From the NCBI GenBank assembly GCA_913055815.1, contig CAJXKR010000002.1:1-40282 (forward strand): DNA of 40,282 bases, given 5' to 3'. The notes below the pieces were generated by a model that had not been told where the DNA came from, made no database searches, and saw nothing but the letters and a program-made list of their open reading frames with translations. Positions 2,438-36,739 of the stretch are shown one piece after another. A program made the translations under genes and the position numbers. How positions within the stretch are numbered: position 1 is the stretch's first letter; the number at the start of each line of letters is the position of its first letter. The DNA is from an uncultured Desulfohalobiaceae bacterium (lineage in GTDB: Bacteria > Desulfobacterota > Desulfovibrionia > Desulfovibrionales > Desulfothermaceae).

Positions 2438-2827
2438 TTACTGACCTTCCTCTACCAAAGCTGTAACACTACCAGAGAGTTGATTAAGCTCACCCCAATC
2501 CGCTTCCACTTTGCCTATTTGATGTACAGGAAAGGCAGCGCGGATTTCGTCACCTTTACTGGCAGGAGTGGGGCCCCAGAAGATGCACAACCATCCCGTG
2601 TCCTGATGGAATGCCAAATCCCCCACGTCCATGATCTCCATACTGTCATCCTCAAAAGCTTCAACTGATGCGGATACTGGACCGTAAAGCTCTTCGCCCC
2701 ACTTATCCATGTTGGCCCTGAAAGGAAGTTGGTCCTTGAGCGCCTCTCCACCGGGAGTATCAAAAAGTTCCCCTTTTATCACGATTGCATCATTAAGAGT
2801 GATTCTAATGTTTTTGCCCATAAACAC
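2438..2827 (-). CDS. Cyclophilin-like fold protein (DUF369/TM1367-type)
   Basis: Small protein with DTPGGEALKDQLPF, EELYGPVS, VGDLAFHQDTGWLCIFWGPTPAS, characteristic of prokaryotic cyclophilin-like proteins. Confidence 0.65.
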   Translation of the reverse strand: MFMGKNIRITLNDAIVIKGELFDTPGGEALKDQLPFRANMDKWGEELYGPVSASVEAFEDDSMEIMDVGDLAFHQDTGWLCIFWGPTPASKGDEIRAAFPVHQIGKVEADWGELNQLSGSVTALVEEGQ

Positions 2828-2946
2828 CCTCTCCGGTTTTTGGCCTTGTAAATAATATTGCTTTATCGACTCCCTTCAGTTGTATTATAATACTTTAACA
2901 TGATTTCTAGCACTATTTTTATCCATTATCAAACTAATATTGTGTA

Positions 2947-3594
2947 TCACGGAATATCTAGAAATTTATGCACTTGCAGTCCCAGTCTCCAATTGGGATT
3001 TTGCAGGCAAAAATTGACAGCCGCTCGAAGATTTTCCTGATAATTATCCCCACTTTTGGGCTGCAGAAAAAAATGCTCAAAATCCCAGTGTTCGAACTCT
3101 ACAGGATCCAGCATATCCTGCGGAAAGATCAATTTCAACTCCTTCCCGGATCTGATCTTTACTTCGGTGTTGGCTTTGGGACTTACACAAACCCAATCCA
3201 AATTGGAAGGTAGATTCAAAGTACCGTTGGTCTCTACAGCGGTTTCAAAACCGGCATTATTAAAAAGCTGAACCAAATCTTCCCCCAATTGCAGGGCGGG
3301 TTCTCCACCGGTAAACACTACAAACGGCCGGCCCAAGTAATGATTACTTGAATTCACTGGCCAGAAGGAACTAACCCTTTCAAACAATTGCAAAGCGGAA
3401 TCGAATTTGCCGCCTGTATCTTGATCCAAATTTACAAAATCTGTATCGCAAAATCTGCACTCTGCAAACTCCCTGTCCTTTTCCAGCCCAGACCATAAAT
3501 TGCACCCGGCAAAGCGGCAAAAAACCGCTGTCCTGCCGGAATGCGCTCCCTCTCCCTGCAGTGAATAAAATATTTCCTTTACAGTATATCCCAT
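2947..3594 (-). CDS. queE: 7-carboxy-7-deazaguanine synthase (radical SAM)
   Basis: VKEIFYSLQGEGAHSGRTAVFCRFAGCNLWS...CRFCDTDF; FTGGEPALQLGEDLVQLFNNAGFETAVETNGT; VCVSPKA. Confidence 0.95.
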   Translation of the reverse strand: MGYTVKEIFYSLQGEGAHSGRTAVFCRFAGCNLWSGLEKDREFAECRFCDTDFVNLDQDTGGKFDSALQLFERVSSFWPVNSSNHYLGRPFVVFTGGEPALQLGEDLVQLFNNAGFETAVETNGTLNLPSNLDWVCVSPKANTEVKIRSGKELKLIFPQDMLDPVEFEHWDFEHFFLQPKSGDNYQENLRAAVNFCLQNPNWRLGLQVHKFLDIP

Positions 3595-3719
3595 ATTAAC
3601 CCATATGCCCTGCCGGGAACCGAAGTATGAAATATCCCTTGATTGTTGAACAACAAGGTTTCAACTCTTTTTTTTACTTAAACACGTAATCACATAATCA
3701 CGTAACCACTTCACTGATT

Positions 3720-4403
3720 TTACTCCCTGTACAAAGTGGGATCCTCCATGCCGGCTTCGGAAAATCCCTTTTTCCGCAGCACACAACTATCGCATTTTCC
3801 GCAGGCCAAACCGTTTTCGTCCGGATCATAACAGGAATGGGTCCAGCTGTAATCTATCCCCAGCTCTATACCTTTTTGGATTATTTCTCCCTTGGACATA
3901 TAAATAAGAGGTGTATGTATCTTATAAGTTAGTTCCCCGGTGGCACTTTTCTTGGTTGCCAGATTGGCCATATTCTCAAAGGCTTTTATGTATTCGGGAC
4001 GGCAGTCAGGGTATCCGGAATAATCCACAACATTCACACCAATAAAGATATCGCTCGAGCCCAGCACTTCCGCCCATCCAAGGGCATAAGACAAGAAGAT
4101 CGTGTTTCTGGCAGGTACATATGTGACCGGAATTTCAGAACCATGTTCAGCATCCGAATACTCGGGCACTTCCATATCCCGGGTAAGGGCGGAACCGCCA
4201 ATCTCCTGCAATGGAACCTTCAATGTCAAATAATGATTTATCCCCAATTTGGAAATGATTTTTTCAGCTGCCTCCACCTCAATGCTGTGCCTCTGGTGAT
4301 AGGAAAACACCAGGGGGCAGGGCTCAAATCCTTCGGACCTGGCTATTTCCAGACAGGTAGTGGAATCCAGTCCCCCGGAAAACAAAACTATCGCTTTACT
4401 CAT
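3720..4403 (-). CDS. queC: 7-cyano-7-deazaguanine synthase
   Basis: AIVLFSGGLDSTTCLEIA P-loop; VTYVPARNTIFLSYALGWAE; Zn-binding CYDPDENGLACGKCDSCVLRKKGF. Confidence 0.97.
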   Translation of the reverse strand: MSKAIVLFSGGLDSTTCLEIARSEGFEPCPLVFSYHQRHSIEVEAAEKIISKLGINHYLTLKVPLQEIGGSALTRDMEVPEYSDAEHGSEIPVTYVPARNTIFLSYALGWAEVLGSSDIFIGVNVVDYSGYPDCRPEYIKAFENMANLATKKSATGELTYKIHTPLIYMSKGEIIQKGIELGIDYSWTHSCYDPDENGLACGKCDSCVLRKKGFSEAGMEDPTLYRE

Positions 4404-7541: not shown

Positions 7542-7733
7542 TAGTGTCTTGTCATACTTTAAATGTCGGTCAGAATAAGCACGTTAATTGCAATTCTGTC
7601 ATCCCGGACCCCGTATCGGGGTACGGGGCAGGCTTTGATCCGGGATCCAGTCTTTTTTCTGTTTTTCTAGATTCCGGCCTTCGCCGGAATGACATTAGTG
7701 TAAAAGCGACAAATTATGTGTGACAAAGCACTA
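7542..7733. mobile_element. MITE-like non-coding element with ~15-bp terminal inverted repeats flanked by TA
   Basis: TAGTGTCTTGTCATA (7542-7556) versus reverse complement of 7719-7733 TAGTGCTTTGTCACA (12/15 identical); no plausible coding content. Confidence 0.6.
7597..7694. repeat. Internal palindromic repeat (TGTCATCCCGG...CCGGAATGACA)
   Basis: Inverted TGTCATCCCGG/CCGGAATGACA ends, plus internal hairpin ATTCCGGCCTTCGCCGGAAT. Confidence 0.7.
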
Positions 7734-7797
7734 GTACATTCATCCTGACATTATAATCCCGTTCTATGAATAATGCCCTTATTATTAGCAAGGATGA

Positions 7798-7968
7798 CTG
7801 GAGACTGAGTACGATTTGTTTTACAAGTCCAACGGTTTCGATCTGCTGTTACCCAGGCTCTTGGGAGGTAAGCAGACAACCCGGAAAGAACTCCCCGGAT
7901 TCGGTGAAGACAGCTTTTGCCTGGGCTGCAAGATATGCACCCGTCCCAAGTCCCCTTTTGCTAGATAA
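7798..7968 (+). pseudogene. C-terminal remnant of a Cys-rich protein (possibly a molybdopterin-binding-type protein)
   Basis: Frame reads LETEYDLFYKSNGFDLLLPRLLGGKQTTRKELPGFGEDSFCLGCKICTRPKSPFAR-stop, with in-frame stops (TAG, TGA) immediately upstream and no start. Confidence 0.4.
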
Positions 7969-8033
7969 TTGCGCTCAATAGGATAAAATTCTTACTGGGA
8001 AAAATTCAATCCGGCGGCACGGGCTTAATAAGT

Positions 8034-9392
8034 TTATCGATTGGAAAGCAGCCCGTGGTGGCTCATTTTGGTCCTTAGCTGCTTTCTGGAGATGCCCAGG
8101 ATCCTGGCAGCGGCACTTTGGTTCCATTCAGTTTGGTCCAGTGCCTTGCAAAGCACGTTCTTTTCCACTTCCAGAAGGTTAAGGTTGTTCGAGGTATGGT
8201 TTTCCTCCTTCAAATCCGTTAGCCTGGGAGGAATACAGGCAGTGGTGATATATTCCCCGGTACAGAGCACCACCGCCCGTTCGATTACATTCTCCAATTC
8301 CCGAACGTTACCTGGCCAGTCGTAGGCCAAAAATATTTCCACAACCTCGTTCGCCACCCCTTCAATGGACTTGTTGTGCTTGGCATTGTAGCGCTCCAGG
8401 AAGAAATCGGCCAAAAGGCTGATATCCTCCTTGTGTTCTCTTAGTGGCGGCAGGTGCATGCTGATCACGTTGAGCCTGTAGTGTAGGTCCTCACGCCAGT
8501 TGCCATCCCTGATCTCCTGTTCCAGATCCTTGTTGGTCGCTGCCAGTATCCTGGCATTGATACTGAATTGCTTGTTACCTCCCACCCTGTTGAACTTCTT
8601 CTCTTGCAGGAATCTGAGTAGCTTTTTTTGTACTCCCAGGGGCAATTCCCCTATCTCGTCCAGGAAAAGGGTCCCGCCTTCAGCCATTTCTATTTGTCCC
8701 TTTTTATCTGCGGTAGCCCCGGTAAAGGCTCCCCTGACATGGCCGAAAAGTTCGGATTCCAGGAGTGTTTCCGGCATGGCGGCACAATCTATGGTTACAA
8801 AGGGCTTGTCGTGATACCCACTGGAATAGTGTATTGCCCTGGCTACCAATTCCTTGCCAGTACCTGTTTCACCTGTGATCAAGATATTGGATTCGTACCC
8901 CGCAACCTTTTCCAGCAGGTCAAAAAGATCCTGCATGGGCTTGCTTTTGCCCACAATGCCACCCAGGCTGTACCTTTGCCGCAATTGTTTTTTCAATTCC
9001 ACGTTCTCTTGTTCCAGGTTTTTCCTTTCCAGGGCTTTTTGCACCAACACGGAGAGCTCCTCCAGATTGACCGGTTTTGTCAAGTAGTTGTATGCCCCCA
9101 GCTTCATTGCCTGGACTGCGTTGTTGATGCTTCCATAGGCGGTGATTATAATAACCTTGATTCCCGGCCTGCACTCCACTATGTCCTGCAAGATATCCAG
9201 GCCGCTTTTCCCTGGGAGTTTCAAATCTGTTACAACCAAATGCACATCCGACTTGCCCAACTCGTTCCAAGCACCTTCTGCAGAGTTGGCGGTCAGCACC
9301 TCGTAGCCCTCCTTTTTCAGGAAGGTGGAGAGCACTTTCAGGGTGTTTGCCTCGTCATCTATAATAAGTATCTTTTGGTTTTCTTCCCGCAT
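8034..9392 (-). CDS. Sigma54-dependent response regulator (REC-AAA+-Fis HTH)
   Basis: KILIIDDEANTLKVL; VVTDLKLPGKSGLDIL; GETGTGKELVARAIH; ESELFGHVRGAFTGA; C-terminal QSAAARILGISRKQLRTKM. Confidence 0.97.
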   Translation of the reverse strand: MREENQKILIIDDEANTLKVLSTFLKKEGYEVLTANSAEGAWNELGKSDVHLVVTDLKLPGKSGLDILQDIVECRPGIKVIIITAYGSINNAVQAMKLGAYNYLTKPVNLEELSVLVQKALERKNLEQENVELKKQLRQRYSLGGIVGKSKPMQDLFDLLEKVAGYESNILITGETGTGKELVARAIHYSSGYHDKPFVTIDCAAMPETLLESELFGHVRGAFTGATADKKGQIEMAEGGTLFLDEIGELPLGVQKKLLRFLQEKKFNRVGGNKQFSINARILAATNKDLEQEIRDGNWREDLHYRLNVISMHLPPLREHKEDISLLADFFLERYNAKHNKSIEGVANEVVEIFLAYDWPGNVRELENVIERAVVLCTGEYITTACIPPRLTDLKEENHTSNNLNLLEVEKNVLCKALDQTEWNQSAAARILGISRKQLRTKMSHHGLLSNR

Positions 9393-9403
9393 AAATAAAC
9401 CTG

Positions 9404-11014
9404 TTACTCGTTGTTAAGACCCTTAACCAAACTGGTATCGGTTTTTACTCCGGGTATGGTTATGGTAAAGCTGCTCCCATACCCTGGCGTGCTTTGTACA
9501 TCAATACTACCCTGGTGTTCTTTTACATTCTGTTCCACAATTGCCAATCCAAGCCCGGATCCTTTGACTTTTCCGGTATAAAATGGCTTGAACATATCCT
9601 CTTGTTTGTCCGCTGGAATGCCTTCACCCGTATCCTGGATACAAAGGTGAACGTTATTATTTTCCAACCAGTTGTATACACGAATCATCCCGCCAGGGTC
9701 AGTGGCCTGGACAGCATTGACCAGGATGTTCAGCACTGCCTGCTTGAGCTTGGAGCCATCGAAATAAAAAGGAGGGATGCCCGGATCCAGGTTTGTCTCA
9801 AGCTCAATATCCTTGTCCTTGATCTCGCTATCTACAAGTTGCAGGGTTTCCCGTATCATTTGATTGAAATCCGACAACGTTATTTCAGCAGGGCCAGGTT
9901 TGGAAAAATTCAGGAAATCCTGGACAATATCGCTGAGTCTTTTGCTTTCTTCCTGGATGATGGATAAAAATTCCTGTAATAGCTTGCCGGAAAAATTGTT
10001 CTTCAAATAGTCGGCAGATCCCTTGATTGCGTTCAAGGGATTCTTTATCTCGTGGGCAACCTGGGAGGCCATCTGTCCCAGCAGGGACAATCTCTCCATC
10101 CTGTTCTTTTCCAGGTTTGCCTGCTCCAGCTTGTTTATATTCAGCTTCAAGTTCTTTACCATTTGGTTAAAGACCAGATTGAGCTCTCCTATCTCGTCTC
10201 CAGCAGCATGCTTGAACACTGGACAATTCATACACTTGCTCTGCTGCTGGAAATCGTTCAAGCTGGACATCCAGCACTGTTCCATATCCCTGGCTTCACA
10301 GTCAGGATTTAGACACTTGAAATAATATGCGCAGTCCATACTACGTTCATTGGAAATTTCCAGATCCAGGTCTCCCAGTTGTACCCGGTGCATGTTTTCC
10401 TTCAGCTTGCTTATTCTCTTGGTCATCATCCAGGCAAGCAAATAAGAGGAGAACATGCCCACAAAAAACAGTGCTGCGGAGAGGTAGAAAAGGTTGTAGC
10501 GCAACTCTTTTAGATTGGCAGCCACCAATTGAGATTCCTTGTACTTGTCTATCCCCAACACCGCCCACCCCAAGAGTTCTCCCCCCACCCGGACAGGGGC
10601 AAAATAATCCTGTATTGAAAGTCCCCTTATTTTTTTGTTCTTTATAAAAAAATCTTTTTTCTCGGGCAGTTGTACTTTATTACCCAGATTGGATCTATCT
10701 GTATGCGCTACTATCCTGCCCCTGGAATCGATAATATATGCATATTTGGACATTATGCTCTTTTGGGTGGATTTAACCAAACTGTCCAGTTGCTGGTAAT
10801 TATTCAGCAATAGCGGATCAACCGATTCCAAACTCAATTTTTTTACCATGCTGCGGTTTTTTTTCCTTAAATTTTCACTGAGATTTTGTGCATGGTATTT
10901 GTCTATGATTATAAAGAAGGCAATCAAGATTATCAGGATATTCACCAAAATGGCCAAGGTAAACTTGTGTTTCAGTTTCAACCTGTTCAGCAGGCTTGTT
11001 ACTCCGGTAATCAT
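9404..11014 (-). CDS. Membrane sensor histidine kinase with Cys-rich insertion in HAMP region
   Basis: Two TM segments around a Cache/PAS-like sensor, HAMP, CAYYFKCLNPDCEARDMEQCW...CMNC insertion, QVAHEIKNPLNAIKGSADYL H-box, GKVKGSGLGLAIVEQ. Overlaps upstream gene by 4 nt. Confidence 0.95.
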   Translation of the reverse strand: MITGVTSLLNRLKLKHKFTLAILVNILIILIAFFIIIDKYHAQNLSENLRKKNRSMVKKLSLESVDPLLLNNYQQLDSLVKSTQKSIMSKYAYIIDSRGRIVAHTDRSNLGNKVQLPEKKDFFIKNKKIRGLSIQDYFAPVRVGGELLGWAVLGIDKYKESQLVAANLKELRYNLFYLSAALFFVGMFSSYLLAWMMTKRISKLKENMHRVQLGDLDLEISNERSMDCAYYFKCLNPDCEARDMEQCWMSSLNDFQQQSKCMNCPVFKHAAGDEIGELNLVFNQMVKNLKLNINKLEQANLEKNRMERLSLLGQMASQVAHEIKNPLNAIKGSADYLKNNFSGKLLQEFLSIIQEESKRLSDIVQDFLNFSKPGPAEITLSDFNQMIRETLQLVDSEIKDKDIELETNLDPGIPPFYFDGSKLKQAVLNILVNAVQATDPGGMIRVYNWLENNNVHLCIQDTGEGIPADKQEDMFKPFYTGKVKGSGLGLAIVEQNVKEHQGSIDVQSTPGYGSSFTITIPGVKTDTSLVKGLNNE

Positions 11015-28513: not shown

Positions 28514-30553
28514 TTATTGCATCTGTTTAACTATTTGTTCCAGATCCTGGGCCAATCTATTCAACTCGGAAATGGCCTGCGAAGATTGCTGCATAGTTTC
28601 CGCCGCCTCAGTAGCGGTTCTGTTCACTTCTTCAGTGGATTGATTGACTTGTTCACTTGCAGAGGATTGCTCTTCAGAGGAAGTGGCTATGTTTTGCACC
28701 TGCTCGGCATTTGACTCTGCAAGTCCCACAATCTCCTGCAAGTAATTGCTGGCCTTGCGTGACTGTTCGGACGTCTCTTCCACCGCTTTTTCAGTTTCTG
28801 TCACCTCTTCCACATTCTTTTCCGTACCCGAGGTTATGGAACTTATGGTATTGCCCACTTCCTTGGTTGCCTCCATGGTCTTTTCAGCCAGCTTGCGCAC
28901 TTCGTCCGCCACCACTGCGAATCCCTTTCCGGCTTCTCCGGCACGAGCGGCTTCGATTGCCGCGTTGAGTGCCAGCAGGTTAGTCTGGTCAGCAATGTCG
29001 TTTATCATGTCCATCACCTGGTTTATACCCTGCACATCCTTACTGAGCTGGTCCATGGAACTTTTCACGTTTTGTGTCCTCTGGTTGACACTGTGCATAT
29101 ATTCGGATACCTGGTCCACTATCTCCTTGCCTTCGTTGGCCTTTTTCTTGGTGCTTTCGGATTGTTCCGCCGCGCTGGAGGCATTTCTGGATATTTCCAG
29201 TATGGAGGAATTCATTTGTTCCATGGCCGTGGACACTTCGGAAGCCCGTTTTTGCTGTTCCTCCGCTCCGGTACTGGCTTCTTCTATCTGGGCGGAGAGT
29301 TCCTCTGTAGCACTGGCCAAACGCTCGGAAACATCGTTTGCCTGGCTGGAGAGCTCATACAGTTGGGAGTTCTGTTCCTGGATCTTTTTCTCTTGTTCCT
29401 TTATATCAGTAATATCGGCTATGGTAATAAACACGCTTGCCAGTTCCCCCTTGTCGTCGAACAAGGGTGCTGAATCCACTTGAATATGCTTGATATTGCC
29501 CTTTCTGGTCTCGAATTCGGCCTGTGTGCCCAAAATTGGCCGCCTTTCCTGAATTGTCTTTTCCGTTATAGTAGACCTGGTGGCATCGTTGTAAAAGGCA
29601 AGGCCCGCTTTTTCCCCGATCAACCTCTCCTTGTCGTCTTCTTCCACCAGCATAGCGGCTGCCTTGTTGAATTTTTTGATATAAGCGTTCTGATCCGACC
29701 AAACCAGGGGAGTAGCCATTTCCTCCAAAACTGATTCGTAGTAATTTATGCTCTCCTTTATCTTCTCCGTCATTATGTTGATCTTTTCAGCAAGCTTACC
29801 TATCTCGTCGCTACGATCAATCTGCAGTTTTGCAATATCCAGGTTTCCATCGGCAATACTCTCAGCATGTCTGTCCATGTCAACAATGGGTCTGGAGATA
29901 CGCTTGGCCAGGTAAAAAATTCCCACTGCAATCACGGCAGTTATACCTATCCCGATTAAGGTTATTTTCAAAAACATGGAGACGATGCTATTCCAGACAT
30001 CATTGACATATATTCCTGAAACCAAGACCCATCCCCAGGGTTCGAATTCCTTAACATAGGACAACTTGGGTTCTTCACGGTCCTCGTCGTCGTAATACTG
30101 CCAGTGGTATTCTACAAACCCTGCTCCTTTGTCCTTGGCTACCTCCACCATCTCTTTAATTAAATATTTGCCGTTAGGGTCCTGGAGACCGGAAATATCC
30201 TGGCCCTCTAATTGGGGCTGGTACGGGTGCATTAACATTCTCGGCTTTTTATCGATTATATAAAAATAATTCCGTTCTTTCGGTCCGTACCTGACACCTC
30301 TTATGGCCTCTTGAGCAGAGGCTTTGGCTTTGGCTTCGCTCATCTCACCGTCCTTGGACAATTCATAATAGTGGTTCAGGATAGCCATTTGAGCCTGGGT
30401 CAGATTTTTCACCTTGCTTTTTTTCTCTTGCCATAGTGAATCGTAAACATCCGGAAAATAGACTAAACTCAATACTATCGAAAAGACAGCTATTAGCAGG
30501 ATCATGGTGACAACCAATTGATTCTGAAAACTCTTGAACCGAAAGAGACGCAT
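28514..30553 (-). CDS. Methyl-accepting chemotaxis protein (sCache-HAMP-PAS-MCP signal)
   Basis: Two TM segments, Cache-type sensor ([22 protein letters not shown]), HAMP, PAS, and [41 protein letters not shown]. Confidence 0.96.
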
Positions 30554-30923: not shown

Positions 30924-33161
30924 TTATCCATAGATCCAGATTAGATAGCCTAGCATCATAAACAGCAAAACAGGTTGCAACGCTCGAATGCCCCATTCCA
31001 AAACCCGATATAATCTTTCATTTTTATAATAAAATGCGGTGCGTACTGCAATGGTAACCATGATCCCGATAAGAAGCCACATATAGACAAAGAAATACAC
31101 ATAGTCGATTGACACCAGATAACCAATATTGGGGAGTTGATCAGCCGTCATCAGGCTCAAGGAGACCGTGGTTAACAGCAGGATGACCCCCAAATTAAGC
31201 CTGGCGGCAAAAGGCGGACCCTCGGGAACAATAAAAGTCATGGCGTAGCCAAGAATAAAAATAAAGAACAAGGGGACCATGTTCTTGAATATGTAGCTGG
31301 CGGCATTGCGTTCGATCTTTGCCATGACATTGAACCGGGAATAAGTTATGCCCGTATCAGCATCGGAGTGGAACAGACGGGGATTCCCCAGTGTGGAGTC
31401 TGCCACTCCAATATCCGAATAGGCAAGGATATCTTGCAGTTGCCATTTGTTTTCTCCCTGAAAACCCGAGTGCTGCTGCAACCGGCTTAAGAGACTGCTT
31501 CCTTTGTGCCGTTGCATACCAATGTCGTCTGCCACAAAAATAAGCCGCTCCCTGTTGAGTTCTTTGTGCCGGAAGCGGATACGCAGGGTTTGCTCGTCAA
31601 AGGGGTAGTTGTGAAACTGAAATGGCTCCTGGAATTCAGACTTCACCCGGTAGGCACGGTAGTGCATATCGTCCACGGTGGTAGCCCTCATGGGATCAAC
31701 ATTTTCTCCCAACTGCACATCACTGTTAAAGAACTCGATCTTGGAGTAGTCCAGTGGATTCACATGCCGGAACCAAATGTAAAAGTCTGCGATAAAGCTC
31801 TCATTTTTTTGGTCAATGTGCACGATCTCATTTATATCCAGCCCGGTATAAACCACATCTGTTTTATAAAACAGATCATCCTGAAATGAAAGTAGATTGC
31901 CCTTCTGGATATGTTTGTCTACATCAAGGAGTTGGTCCGGATTGAGCACCGGGGTGAGTTGCACCGGGGCGGAAACGAGATTGTCCCTGACGTAGAGCCC
32001 AAAGGGTGAGGGATTGTCTGCATTGCCCTGTGCATCGAAATATATATGCCCGGTAACACCGGTATAGGACTTGTCTGGATTGGAATAACCTTGCAGGATA
32101 TCCCGCAGCTGCCTCCGCTGGCTGGAGAGTTCAGCATCCGGGTCTACACGCTCCAGGGCCTGCAGGACAAGTCCTGCGGCATCATAATTGCTTGCGCTCA
32201 AAGCATCTGGCTCTTGGTCATGTTCGTGTATGAAATCACGGCTGAATTGTTGGGCTTTCCTGTTGGCGATATCCCGGATAAAATAGGTAGTGGTGTAGAT
32301 CCCGTTGGTGTAGTCACCTGCATCTTCGGAGTCGCTTAGACCTGAAGCCACTTCCTTGGGAAATGTACCCAGCCCCAGGGAATCGCCCCCCAAAACAGGT
32401 ATATCCAGATTGGATTTTTGAAGACGTCGCACCAAATCCGCCGCCTCTTTATCCAGCAAGGCCACATACATCCCGCCGGAGTCTTTATCCTTTTGCAATT
32501 GCTCGATAATCCTGTCCAATTTTTGGGATACATTGTCCTCAAGAGAATTGATCCCCCAGTTATTCTTGATATTCAAGTCCAATTCCCGGGCAGCGGAACG
32601 AAAAGATTGCATCAATGTCCGGCCATAGGCATCATCTTCATATACGATGTTCACATCCGACTGATTCAAGACCCCGGACATATACAGAGCAGAGAGCTTA
32701 CCCTGCAACCTGTTGTCCGAGACTACCCGAAAATACCAGGGATTGCCTTCAGTAACATCAGGCGCGGCTGCACTCCCGGTTACTGCCGGAATCCCCCTGT
32801 CTTGATATATTTCACCTCCTTGCAGGGACAAGGAACTGTAATAGTGACCGATAACCGCCAGGCACCGGCTCTCATCAGCGATCCTCCTTGCCTGTTTGCG
32901 GGCCAACTTTTTGTCGTGCTTGTTGTCATAGACTTCAACAACAACTTCCCTACCCCGGATTCCTCCCTTGTCATTGATATTTTGCACCTGCAGGCGGACT
33001 CCGTTCACCATGGCATTACCGCTTTTTTTATCCTTGCCGCTCATGGGACCGATGACAGCAATACGCAGTGGCTCCTGGGCCTGGGCAACAGAAGAGATAC
33101 TGATGAGAATGGTTAGGCAGGCTATTGCCACTTTGATATAAAAGCTAAAGTAAGTATACAA
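30924..33161 (-). CDS. LIVBP-type periplasmic binding domain fused to pentameric ligand-gated ion channel (Cys-loop/Pro-loop family)
   Basis: Signal peptide; LRIAVIGPMSGKDKKSGNAMVNGVRLQVQNINDKGGIRGREV (type I SBP); ECD with FQEPFQFHNYPFDEQTLRIRF; four C-terminal TM helices including M2 AARLNLGVILLLTTVSLSLMTADQLPNIGYLVSIDYVYF. Confidence 0.88.
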   Translation of the reverse strand: MYTYFSFYIKVAIACLTILISISSVAQAQEPLRIAVIGPMSGKDKKSGNAMVNGVRLQVQNINDKGGIRGREVVVEVYDNKHDKKLARKQARRIADESRCLAVIGHYYSSLSLQGGEIYQDRGIPAVTGSAAAPDVTEGNPWYFRVVSDNRLQGKLSALYMSGVLNQSDVNIVYEDDAYGRTLMQSFRSAARELDLNIKNNWGINSLEDNVSQKLDRIIEQLQKDKDSGGMYVALLDKEAADLVRRLQKSNLDIPVLGGDSLGLGTFPKEVASGLSDSEDAGDYTNGIYTTTYFIRDIANRKAQQFSRDFIHEHDQEPDALSASNYDAAGLVLQALERVDPDAELSSQRRQLRDILQGYSNPDKSYTGVTGHIYFDAQGNADNPSPFGLYVRDNLVSAPVQLTPVLNPDQLLDVDKHIQKGNLLSFQDDLFYKTDVVYTGLDINEIVHIDQKNESFIADFYIWFRHVNPLDYSKIEFFNSDVQLGENVDPMRATTVDDMHYRAYRVKSEFQEPFQFHNYPFDEQTLRIRFRHKELNRERLIFVADDIGMQRHKGSSLLSRLQQHSGFQGENKWQLQDILAYSDIGVADSTLGNPRLFHSDADTGITYSRFNVMAKIERNAASYIFKNMVPLFFIFILGYAMTFIVPEGPPFAARLNLGVILLLTTVSLSLMTADQLPNIGYLVSIDYVYFFVYMWLLIGIMVTIAVRTAFYYKNERLYRVLEWGIRALQPVLLFMMLGYLIWIYG

Positions 33162-33682: not shown

Positions 33683-36600
33683 ATGAACTCAAACCTAGAT
33701 CCCCAGCAATGGGGGAAATCTCTTTTTGATGCAGTCACGGAACTAGTGACCACTCTGGATCTTAATATGCGGATCCAGTGGGCCAATCAGGATACTGCCA
33801 AGTCAGTAAATGAAAATCCCGAGAACCTGCTGGGACATTATTGCTTCCAGGTCTGGTACAATCGGGACATCCCCTGTGAAGAGTGCCCGGTCCAAATGAC
33901 CATACAGACCGGGGAATCCCAAGAAAGCGAAGTGGCATCACCCGACGGCAAGTATCAACATGTAAGGACCTATCCACTGAACTCCCAGGAGGGAAATTTA
34001 GAGGGAGTTGCCGTGCTTGGCAGGGATATCACCGAGTGGAAGCAGATGGAAAAGGAACTGCAGCAGCGAAGATCTGAATTGGAAAAGCAGGAAGAGCTGT
34101 ACCGCAGTCTGGTGGAAGATCATCCCTATTTTGTTGAACGCTTCCTGCCTGATACCACGATTATTTTTGCCAACAACGCCATGGCGGAATCCATTGGCTA
34201 TCCCCCTGAACAGCTCAAGGGCCGGAAATGGATAGATTTCATTCCCGAGGAGGAGCGCACCCTGATTCTGGAACAACTGGCAGAACTGACTCCTGAAGAT
34301 TCGATTTGCAGCTACGAGAATTCCTGTTTTGCCAGTAATGGTTCCAAGCGTTTGCACAGCTGGACCCACCAGGCCTTTTTCGACGACCAGGGTGAAATTA
34401 GCTACTTTCAGTCAGTCGGAACGGATGTCACGGAACGCAAACAGGCAGAAAGGGCCCTGCAAGAGTGGGAAAACTACTACCGCACCATATTCGAGACTTC
34501 GGGCTCGGCAATGTTTATTATTGAACACGATACCACCATTTCCCTCGCCAATTCAAACTTCGAACGAATGACCGGATATTCCAGACAGGAAGTCGAGGGG
34601 AAGAAATCCTGGACCGAGTTCGTGCACCCGGATGATGTGACCTGGATGAAGGAAAAGCACTACTTTCGAAGGCAATATCCCTCCGGAATCCCACTTGAAT
34701 ACGAATTCCGCTTCTTTGCACGCAATGGCGAACTGCGTCATGCCTATCTAACCATCGATTTGATCCCGGAGACTACAAAGAGCGTGGTTTCGGTTGTAGA
34801 CATAACAGAACGCAAAAACACCGAAGCAGCCATGCGCCGTTCCGAGAACTACTACCGCGCCATATTCGAGACTTCGGGGGCGATAATGTTTATTGTTGAA
34901 GAGGACACCACCATTTCGCATGTCAACTCCAACTTCGAGAATTTGACCGGATATTCCAGACAAGAGGTAGAGGGGGAAAAATCCTGGACCGAGTTCGTAA
35001 ACCCCGGTGATCTGGAATGGCTGCAGGAATACAATTATTCGCTGCGCCAGCATCCAAATACGGCACCACGCCAGAATGAAATAAACATAACCAACCGCCA
35101 AGGAGAAAGCAAGGATCTGTATTTGGCAGCAGCCAGGATACCGGGGAGCAATCAAAGGGTCGTCTCATGTATTGACATCACCGAAAGCAAGCGGGCAGAG
35201 GATTTGTTGCGGGAGAGCGAGGAACAATACCGCCTACTGGTGGAAAACGCCTTTGAAGGTATCGGGGTTGCTCAAGACGGTGAATTTAAATGGATAAATC
35301 CACGCATAGTCGAAATGATGGGTTGTTCCCAAGAAGAACTAACCACTATCTCTATTTTCGATTTTGTGCACCCGGAAGACAAAGAAGCAGTGATAAAAAA
35401 ACATTACCAGAGGATGCAGGAAATCAAGCCGCCTAGAATATACTCCTTCAGAATCTTGAGCCCTCAAAACGAAGTCCTGTGGTGCCAGGTATCAGTGATT
35501 GGCATAAATTGGCAGGGCAGGCCAGCGGATTTATGCTTTTTCTCCGATATATCCCAGCAAAAAAGGATCGAATCTGAACTGGAAGAGGCGAAACAAAGAG
35601 CAGAAGCAGCCAACAGATCCAAATCCGAGTTTTTGGCCAATATGAGCCACGAGATTCGTACGCCTCTAAACGGTATCCTGGGAATGTTGCAATTATTAAA
35701 GACCTCTGCCCTGGATGAACAGCAAGAAAGATTCGTAGACACCGGCCTGGATTCAACAAGACGGCTTAACAGGCTTTTGACCGATATCCTGGACCTCTCC
35801 AAGATCGAGGCAAACAAACTGGTAATCAAGCAGGAGGAATTCGTATTTACTGATGTGATACAAACCATAAGGGATATTTTTAATCAACTCACCCAAAAGA
35901 ACCAGAATGAAATCAATATCAGCCTGGACGAGAACATCCCGGAAATGCTAATCGGGGACAGCACCCGCCTGAATCAGATCCTGTTCAATCTGGTGGGCAA
36001 TGCAAATAAATATACCCAAAACGGCCAGATTGGATTGGAAGTGTCTCTATTGCCAGCTGTACAGCCTGACAACTGCAGACTACTGTTCGTGATCGCGGAC
36101 AATGGACAAGGAATCCCTGAAGACAGGATAGACAGGATCTTTGACATATTCACCCAGGGCAGCGATGCCTCTTACACCCGGGAATTTGAAGGCGCCGGCC
36201 TGGGCCTTCCCCTGGTCAAAAGGCTCGTGGATTTGATGAACGGCAGTATATCCCTTAGCAGCAAAGAGGGTGAAGGGACCACGGTTTATGTCAGCCTCCC
36301 CTTCGGGATACCGGAGTCCATGCAGCAAGACACGGATGACTCGCAGGCCGCTGAAAAGCCCTTTACAGCAAGCAATTCACGCGTGCTAGTGGTGGACGAC
36401 GACGAAACAACCCAACTCTATATTAAGCGCCTGCTGGAAATGCAGGGTGTTGCAACCAACGTGGCAGAGGACGGGAAAGAAGCCCTGGATTGGCTTGAAA
36501 AAGATGATTTCGACTGCATCTTGATGGATGTGCAAATGCCTGTACTGGACGGTGTAGAGGCAACAAAAAAGATCCGCTCTTCAAATGCGGACTTCAAAAA

Positions 36601-36739
36601 AATACCCATTGTCGCCATGACGGCTTACGCCATGACCGGAGACCGGGAAAAATTCCTGCAGGCAGGCATGGACGACTATATTGCCAAGCCGGTGGACAGG
36701 GATGGACTTTTGGCAATACTGGAGAGAAATATAAATTAA
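33683..36739 (+). CDS. Multi-PAS hybrid histidine kinase with C-terminal receiver
   Basis: Five PAS-like modules, H-box SEFLANMSHEIRTPLNGILGMLQLL, GAGLGLPLVKRLVDLM, REC RVLVVDDDETTQLYIKRLLE...CILMDVQMPVLDGVEA. No obvious TM. Confidence 0.95.
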   Translation: MNSNLDPQQWGKSLFDAVTELVTTLDLNMRIQWANQDTAKSVNENPENLLGHYCFQVWYNRDIPCEECPVQMTIQTGESQESEVASPDGKYQHVRTYPLNSQEGNLEGVAVLGRDITEWKQMEKELQQRRSELEKQEELYRSLVEDHPYFVERFLPDTTIIFANNAMAESIGYPPEQLKGRKWIDFIPEEERTLILEQLAELTPEDSICSYENSCFASNGSKRLHSWTHQAFFDDQGEISYFQSVGTDVTERKQAERALQEWENYYRTIFETSGSAMFIIEHDTTISLANSNFERMTGYSRQEVEGKKSWTEFVHPDDVTWMKEKHYFRRQYPSGIPLEYEFRFFARNGELRHAYLTIDLIPETTKSVVSVVDITERKNTEAAMRRSENYYRAIFETSGAIMFIVEEDTTISHVNSNFENLTGYSRQEVEGEKSWTEFVNPGDLEWLQEYNYSLRQHPNTAPRQNEINITNRQGESKDLYLAAARIPGSNQRVVSCIDITESKRAEDLLRESEEQYRLLVENAFEGIGVAQDGEFKWINPRIVEMMGCSQEELTTISIFDFVHPEDKEAVIKKHYQRMQEIKPPRIYSFRILSPQNEVLWCQVSVIGINWQGRPADLCFFSDISQQKRIESELEEAKQRAEAANRSKSEFLANMSHEIRTPLNGILGMLQLLKTSALDEQQERFVDTGLDSTRRLNRLLTDILDLSKIEANKLVIKQEEFVFTDVIQTIRDIFNQLTQKNQNEINISLDENIPEMLIGDSTRLNQILFNLVGNANKYTQNGQIGLEVSLLPAVQPDNCRLLFVIADNGQGIPEDRIDRIFDIFTQGSDASYTREFEGAGLGLPLVKRLVDLMNGSISLSSKEGEGTTVYVSLPFGIPESMQQDTDDSQAAEKPFTASNSRVLVVDDDETTQLYIKRLLEMQGVATNVAEDGKEALDWLEKDDFDCILMDVQMPVLDGVEATKKIRSSNADFKKIPIVAMTAYAMTGDREKFLQAGMDDYIAKPVDRDGLLAILERNIN

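Follow-up and report, generated by a model that had tools for sequence, protein, structure and literature searches.

A gene in the 40,282-nucleotide stretch of DNA analysed here (the window), from an uncultured Desulfohalobiaceae bacterium, encodes a single chain in which a signal peptide is followed by a type I periplasmic binding protein (PBP-I) domain, the extracellular domain (ECD) of a pentameric ligand-gated ion channel (pLGIC) and four transmembrane helices. The product is quite probably a Cys-less pLGIC, presumably pentameric, in which each subunit carries a periplasmic PBP-I and an amino-acid-type ligand bound to that domain would open the pore; this is the best explanation of the data. 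The larger discovery is that one sensor module, PBP-I plus pLGIC-type ECD, is found on two unrelated channel superfamilies, pLGIC and MscS. The gene has the following parts, given by their positions in the window.

30924..33161, minus strand: whole gene of the PBP-I–pLGIC fusion (745 aa, TTG start, stop included)
33078..33161, minus strand: signal peptide, residues 1-28 (from the sequence, which reads ...SSVAQA and then QEP; cleavage predicted between AQA and QEP)
31950..33071, minus strand: type I PBP (LIVBP/LivK-like) domain, residues 31-404 (PF13458, 3hut, Foldseek 3td9, pocket positions)
31308..31898, minus strand: pLGIC extracellular beta-sandwich, residues 422-618, no cysteines (AF2 strands, hhalign, profile match)
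31572..31607, minus strand: Pro-loop YPFDEQTLRIRF, residues 519-530 ([YH]PF[DE] in 13/13 PBP-pLGIC and 0/63 PBP-ECD-MscS proteins)
31308..31310, minus strand: pre-M1 arginine R618 (R in 12/13 and K in 1/13 of the pLGIC type)
30930..31304, minus strand: transmembrane domain (TMD), with M1 620-643, M2 649-674, M3 680-711 and M4 715-744 (AF2, PF02932, phmmer to DeCLIC)
31140..31217, minus strand: M2 pore helix FAAR(0')LN(2')LGVILLL(9')TT... (alignment; no acidic residue at -1'/-2')

Thirteen proteins, including that of the window, form a PBP-pLGIC family with one domain order, distributed over Desulfobacterota, SAR324 and Cyanobacteria. Scanning genome contigs with the single protein revealed no relative, and a seven-row alignment (A1) was too diverse for scanning; a three-row alignment (A2) worked and, used as a profile against 85,462 named species genomes, recovered 80 loci. 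Eleven of these encode PBP-I, ECD and pLGIC TMD in proteins of 734-792 aa. Members from an Olavius algarvensis Delta 3 symbiont and a Desulfosarcinaceae MAG show 50 and 49% identity over the channel part, and the other fused members are from Desulfobacterota, including Desulfonema magnum NZ_CP061800 (a complete isolate chromosome), a SAR324 MAG and two Cyanobacteria. Desulfonema magnum and a D. limicola MAG each contain two tandem paralogues (L052:2531-7056 and L054:5351-9319; a 4-bp overlap in Desulfonema magnum), so that heteromeric receptors are possible. L054 was rejected as a stand-alone pLGIC, since an assembly gap interrupts what is a fused gene; adjoining the channel genes there is a gene whose 907-aa product combines PBP-I with a following SBP_bac_5 domain, of PBP-II type (L054:2631-5354). 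A whole-phylum sample of 395 genomes contained 17 with a pLGIC-like match, comprising a second PBP-I fusion (L017, 729 aa), several Cache-pLGIC fusions, plain channels and a locus, L033:201-2548, in relative G101 of the same phylum, where PBP-I and pLGIC lie in separate adjacent frames, which either represent a genuine two-gene arrangement or result from a frame error.

At 67 of the 80 loci, PBP-I and the same pLGIC-type ECD are joined to an MscS channel domain, in proteins of about 930-1,160 aa when complete (within L055-L122, e.g. L108:4702-7767, L089:4687-7770 and L063:4717-7695). PF00924 was matched in 30/30 and PF13458 in 29/30 of a scanned subset of this type, and the hosts include Azospirillum and other Rhodospirillales, Rhizobiales, Magnetococcales, Methylococcaceae, Gallionellaceae and Desulfamplus. 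Such proteins are apparently undescribed; no report of a PBP-I/pLGIC-ECD/MscS combination was found in the open-access literature. In Azospirillum, a gene of this type lies directly beside type I secretion genes for ABC and HlyD proteins (L013:4962-11677, L014:1749-7928, L015:1605-7937), and at L013 the neighbours also include genes for TolC and a large VCBS-domain protein.

The relationship of the two ECDs to each other and to those of plain channels is supported by profile comparison and by strand order. In hhalign comparisons, which are pairwise, not calibrated against a database and gave control values of about 0.3 against PBP domains, the window ECD matched plain pLGIC ECDs with a probability of 99.6, and the MscS-type ECD matched PBP-pLGIC ECDs at 100 over 186 columns and unrelated plain pLGIC ECDs at 98 over 168 columns. 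The AlphaFold2 (AF2) models of the window protein and of L108 have the same order of ECD strands, at 429-450, 455-466, 475-477, 492-496, 499-511, 523-532, 540-544, 573-588 and 604-618 (span 423-618) in the former, and at 447-468, 473-485, 493-495, 509-513, 516-528, 541-549, 557-561, 627-640 and 658-670 in the latter. The 13-member family profile matches 4yeu over residues 479-743. PF02931 was unmatched in the window protein by single-sequence Pfam and found nothing over its own genome, likewise nothing in 14 controls; the model is too narrow for its silence to be taken as evidence of absence. G440, W463, H532, D545 and G548 do not vary in either type, and R465 hardly varies.

The Pro-loop tetrad and the pre-M1 arginine couple the ECD to the pore in GLIC and in animal receptors. 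The tetrad, YPFD in the window protein (residues 519-522, window 31596-31607), is present as [YH]PF[DE] in 13/13 of the pLGIC type versus 0/63 of the aligned MscS type, and the position of R618 is R or K in 13/13 of the former and unconserved in the latter. Both elements are thus kept in all proteins with the pLGIC pore and lost together in those with the MscS pore, which is the pattern expected if the ECD drives the pore in the window protein, and argues that this protein still uses pLGIC-style coupling. The Pro-loop Asp has become Gly in 60/63 MscS-type proteins. The Pro-loop proline itself is kept in 26/63, so that a simpler version, with this proline invariably missing from the MscS type, was discarded; it is the tetrad and the Asp that are lost. 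The MscS-pore family therefore provides a natural domain-swap experiment, which separates ECD residues kept for folding and sensing (W463, R465, H532, D545, G548) from those kept only with the pLGIC pore (YPFD and the pre-M1 Arg).

In an ECD tree with other pLGICs, the MscS type forms one clade (100/100) and the PBP-pLGIC proteins fall outside it; the PBP-I tree agrees, placing the MscS type on one side of a branch with SH-aLRT 99. Both trees contain the same groups, namely the window protein with L044 and L074, a cyanobacterial pair and the MscS clade, so that PBP-I and ECD have been inherited together as one unit. The pore has apparently been exchanged once between unrelated channel superfamilies. 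Transfer from pLGIC to MscS is the likelier direction, since the ECD is of pLGIC origin, with the deep branches forming a polytomy. The reading favoured, albeit tentatively, is of a portable sensor in which PBP-I and pLGIC-ECD gate the pLGIC pore here and were transplanted once onto MscS, with decay of the coupling motif and a change in the amino-acid pocket. The outcome would be a ligand-gated, rather than purely tension-gated, MscS family in Alpha-, Beta- and Gammaproteobacteria, Magnetococcales and Desulfamplus.

The PBP-I domain of the window protein is LIVBP/LivK-like. PF13458 (Peripla_BP_6) matches residues 31-358 (E=3.4e-39, above the curated cut-off), with the domain running to about residue 404, and 3hut is matched at E=5.8e-28. 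The two-lobed type I fold is present in the AF2 model, with a Foldseek TM score of 0.90 to LivK 3td9 by target length; mGluR ectodomains are also among the matches. For both full-length models (window and MscS-type), the best 50 Foldseek matches are of PBP-I type only, as this domain dominates the comparison, and the fold of the ECD and TMD rests on profile searches and strand order. The ligand contacts of E. coli LBP, which we take to be S79, G100/A101, T102, Y150 and E226, were mapped by phmmer alignment onto S109, S130/A131, A132, Y179 and D260, respectively. Each of the pocket residues S, A, Y and D is kept by 12/13 members of the PBP-pLGIC family, and of the 371 PBP columns, the 48 with the highest conservation include four of the six pocket columns (hypergeometric p about 0.003). 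Most LivK/LivJ alpha-amino-acid contacts (S109, Y179, D260) thus appear to be kept, and the loss of the pocket that might have undone the sequence-only reading was not observed. That reading had named amino acids as a possible kind of ligand, which is probably right; judged from the pocket, the most plausible ligand is an alpha-amino acid or one of its close analogues. At the ligand-contacting T102 position the window protein has A132, with T in 8/13 relatives, a difference that leaves room for another kind of ligand. In the MscS type the pocket positions are unconserved, with S109 mostly P/A, Y179 mostly Q and D260 mostly S/R. To our knowledge, no PBP-I-bearing pLGIC has been characterised so far; as the pocket suggests a ligand class, the purpose and the opener of bacterial pLGICs become testable in the PBP-pLGIC family, which offers a handle on what these channels do and what opens them.

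In the proposed mechanism, an alpha-amino-acid-like solute would close the PBP-I clamshell, and the closed domain would push on the beta-sandwich ECD through a short linker (about residues 404-422). The ECD would in turn act by way of YPFD in the Pro-loop, the pre-M1 arginine and the loop between M2 and M3, leading to opening of the M2-lined pore, and the role of the protein is probably nutrient sensing through altered membrane potential or ion balance. An alternative, unlikely but deserving of serious attention, is that PBP-I serves for modulation or assembly, in the manner of the amino-terminal domain (ATD) of ionotropic glutamate receptors (iGluRs) or the N-terminal domain (NTD) of DeCLIC, and that the true agonist, or a proton or ion, acts at the ECD interface. 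In iGluRs as in DeCLIC, the extra N-terminal domain is modulatory and the agonist site lies elsewhere. The NTD of DeCLIC seems to speed gating, and Ca2+ binds in both the ECD and the NTD of that channel (PMC12664993). Furthermore, Y438, G440, W463, H532, D545 and G548 of the ECD are as invariant in the family as any PBP column. Nevertheless, retention of the amino-acid pocket in 12/13 argues for real ligand binding, and the joint transfer of PBP-I and ECD to another channel type speaks for the two together being the input device.

The TMD places the protein among pLGICs. PF02932 matches residues 652-719 by single-sequence Pfam (E=1.4e-5; 25.9 bits, below the curated cut-off of 28.1), and phmmer finds DeCLIC (E=1.2e-6 and, for the TMD, 7.7e-7 to 9.5e-7). 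Matches of the 13-member profile to solved pLGICs have E values of about 1e-12 to 1e-16, including GLIC (609-743) at about 3e-12, an ELIC/GLIC chimera (479-743) at 1.3e-12 and DeCLIC at 2e-13; GABA-A chains are also matched over the TMD, and a GABA-A chimera over 479-743. M2 reads AR(0')[LM]N(2')LGV in the window protein, L074 and L044; like receptors selective for anions, these three have no ring of acidic residues at -1'/-2'. In the other members M2 varies widely. The absent ring and the R at 0' make an anion-permeable or poorly selective pore the better guess, albeit a low-confidence one. M2 and M4 are strongly diverged in several relatives (e.g. L017, L051, L053), so that not all family members need be conducting channels, and PF02932 is matched by only 4/13. 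These observations would also suit a protein that is no longer a channel but a ligand-binding membrane protein on a pLGIC-derived scaffold with another signalling route. This is improbable for the window protein, which, with L044 and L074, keeps the GABA-A-like M2 (ARxNLGV), Pro-loop, pre-M1 R and M1 proline, the last within VPLFF.

The gene itself is well defined. Its frame is unbroken across 745 codons, and AAAGGGG, a good ribosome site, lies about 9-10 nt upstream of the TTG start (...AAAGGGGAATGCTCTT immediately before TTG). The signal peptide has a hydrophobic segment at 7-25 in the sequence and a helix at 2-24 in the AF2 model. That model, a monomer obtained with the family alignment, shows PBP-I, beta-sandwich and four TM helices with a mean pLDDT of 83.2 and a pTM of 0.78. 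The frame, the domain matches and the model bear out the sequence-only reading of one 745-aa open reading frame with signal peptide, PBP-I and complete pLGIC; its domain positions are near the refined ones listed above, its ECD without Cys-loop cysteines has indeed no cysteine, and the pLGIC part stands by the AF2 model and by the profile matches to GLIC, DeCLIC and GABA-A. The source genome is a draft (353 contigs, 85% complete, 6.5% contamination) and G101 has the two parts in separate frames, but a spurious join, made in assembly or annotation, between genes for an ABC solute-binding protein and for a pLGIC is refuted by the absence of a frame break and by 12 further fused proteins of the same domain order in independent assemblies from several phyla, one of them the complete Desulfonema magnum chromosome. 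This recurrence also rules out chance, and the fusion is real.

Likeness to known systems is partial. In an iGluR the agonist domain is of PBP-II type and is interrupted by an inverted K-channel pore, and the LIVBP-like domain is modulatory. The convergence on the iGluR plan proposed from the sequence therefore stands as an analogy only: a LIVBP-like domain lies outside a membrane receptor, as in the amino-terminal domains of iGluRs and class C GPCRs, but the membrane parts are unrelated and the window protein has neither a PBP-II ligand-binding domain nor a K-channel-like pore, with no SBP_bac_3, Lig_chan or Ion_trans match in Pfam. LivK/LivJ proteins (3hut, 3td9, 4gnr, 1usg) share the PBP-I fold (TM up to 0.90) and most pocket residues but are soluble ABC-transport receptors with no channel fused. 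GLIC and ELIC share the Cys-less prokaryotic core but have no N-terminal sensor domain. The best solved matches to the window TMD are DeCLIC (PDB 6v4a and others) and 9ftg. DeCLIC likewise comes from a desulfo-bacterium and is a multidomain pLGIC whose N-terminal domain is periplasmic, although its NTD consists of two jelly-roll lobes that bind Ca2+ (PMC12664993), whereas the N-terminal part of the window protein is PBP-I, and not NTD1/NTD2, by Pfam and AF2.

Novelty of the basic fusion is not sustained, as the architecture has been known since 2005. In M. magnetotacticum and B. japonicum, Tasneem et al. 2005 (PMC549065) described bacterial pLGICs (ART-LGICs) with PBP-I fused at the N-terminus, in the order signal peptide, PBP-I, LBD and 4-TM, and proposed that they serve in chemotactic sensing and sense amino acids or small molecules. 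Compared by published description, the window protein likewise has PBP-I, LBD and 4-TM in one chain and is from a different phylum; it adds a member of an uncharacterised kind. The Magnetospirillum-type relatives retrieved here, L080 and L108, carry an MscS and not a pLGIC pore, and in L108 the ECD is followed by four strongly hydrophobic segments, so that the M. magnetotacticum example needs re-checking. Fusions in which Cache replaces PBP-I as the sensor domain ahead of the pLGIC were described in the same study (PMC549065), and are present in the phylum of the window protein (L019, L020, L026, L030).

Signalling genes surround the fusion gene. Upstream and divergent is a gene for a PAS-rich hybrid histidine kinase (33683-36739), and downstream on the same strand are genes for a methyl-accepting chemotaxis protein (MCP) with sCache and PAS domains (28514-30553) and then an RR-GAF-HD-GYP protein. 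The segment 22689-28441 is a signalling cluster encoding an HDOD-histidine kinase-receiver protein, a ParA-like ATPase and a receiver-GAF-HD-GYP protein. With at least 14 MCP genes and dsrA in the source genome, the host is a chemotaxis-equipped and probably sulfate- or sulfur-metabolising bacterium. The signalling neighbours, and amino-acid genes near a relative, are at most suggestive of a sensing role, since gene neighbours are not conserved between PBP-pLGIC relatives. At L074, from the Olavius symbiont MAG, the second gene upstream of the one for the PBP-pLGIC protein encodes a GluR0-type glutamate-receptor channel (2824-3909), and genes of amino-acid catabolism, for 2,4-diaminopentanoate dehydrogenase and a PLP enzyme, follow downstream (7584-10528).
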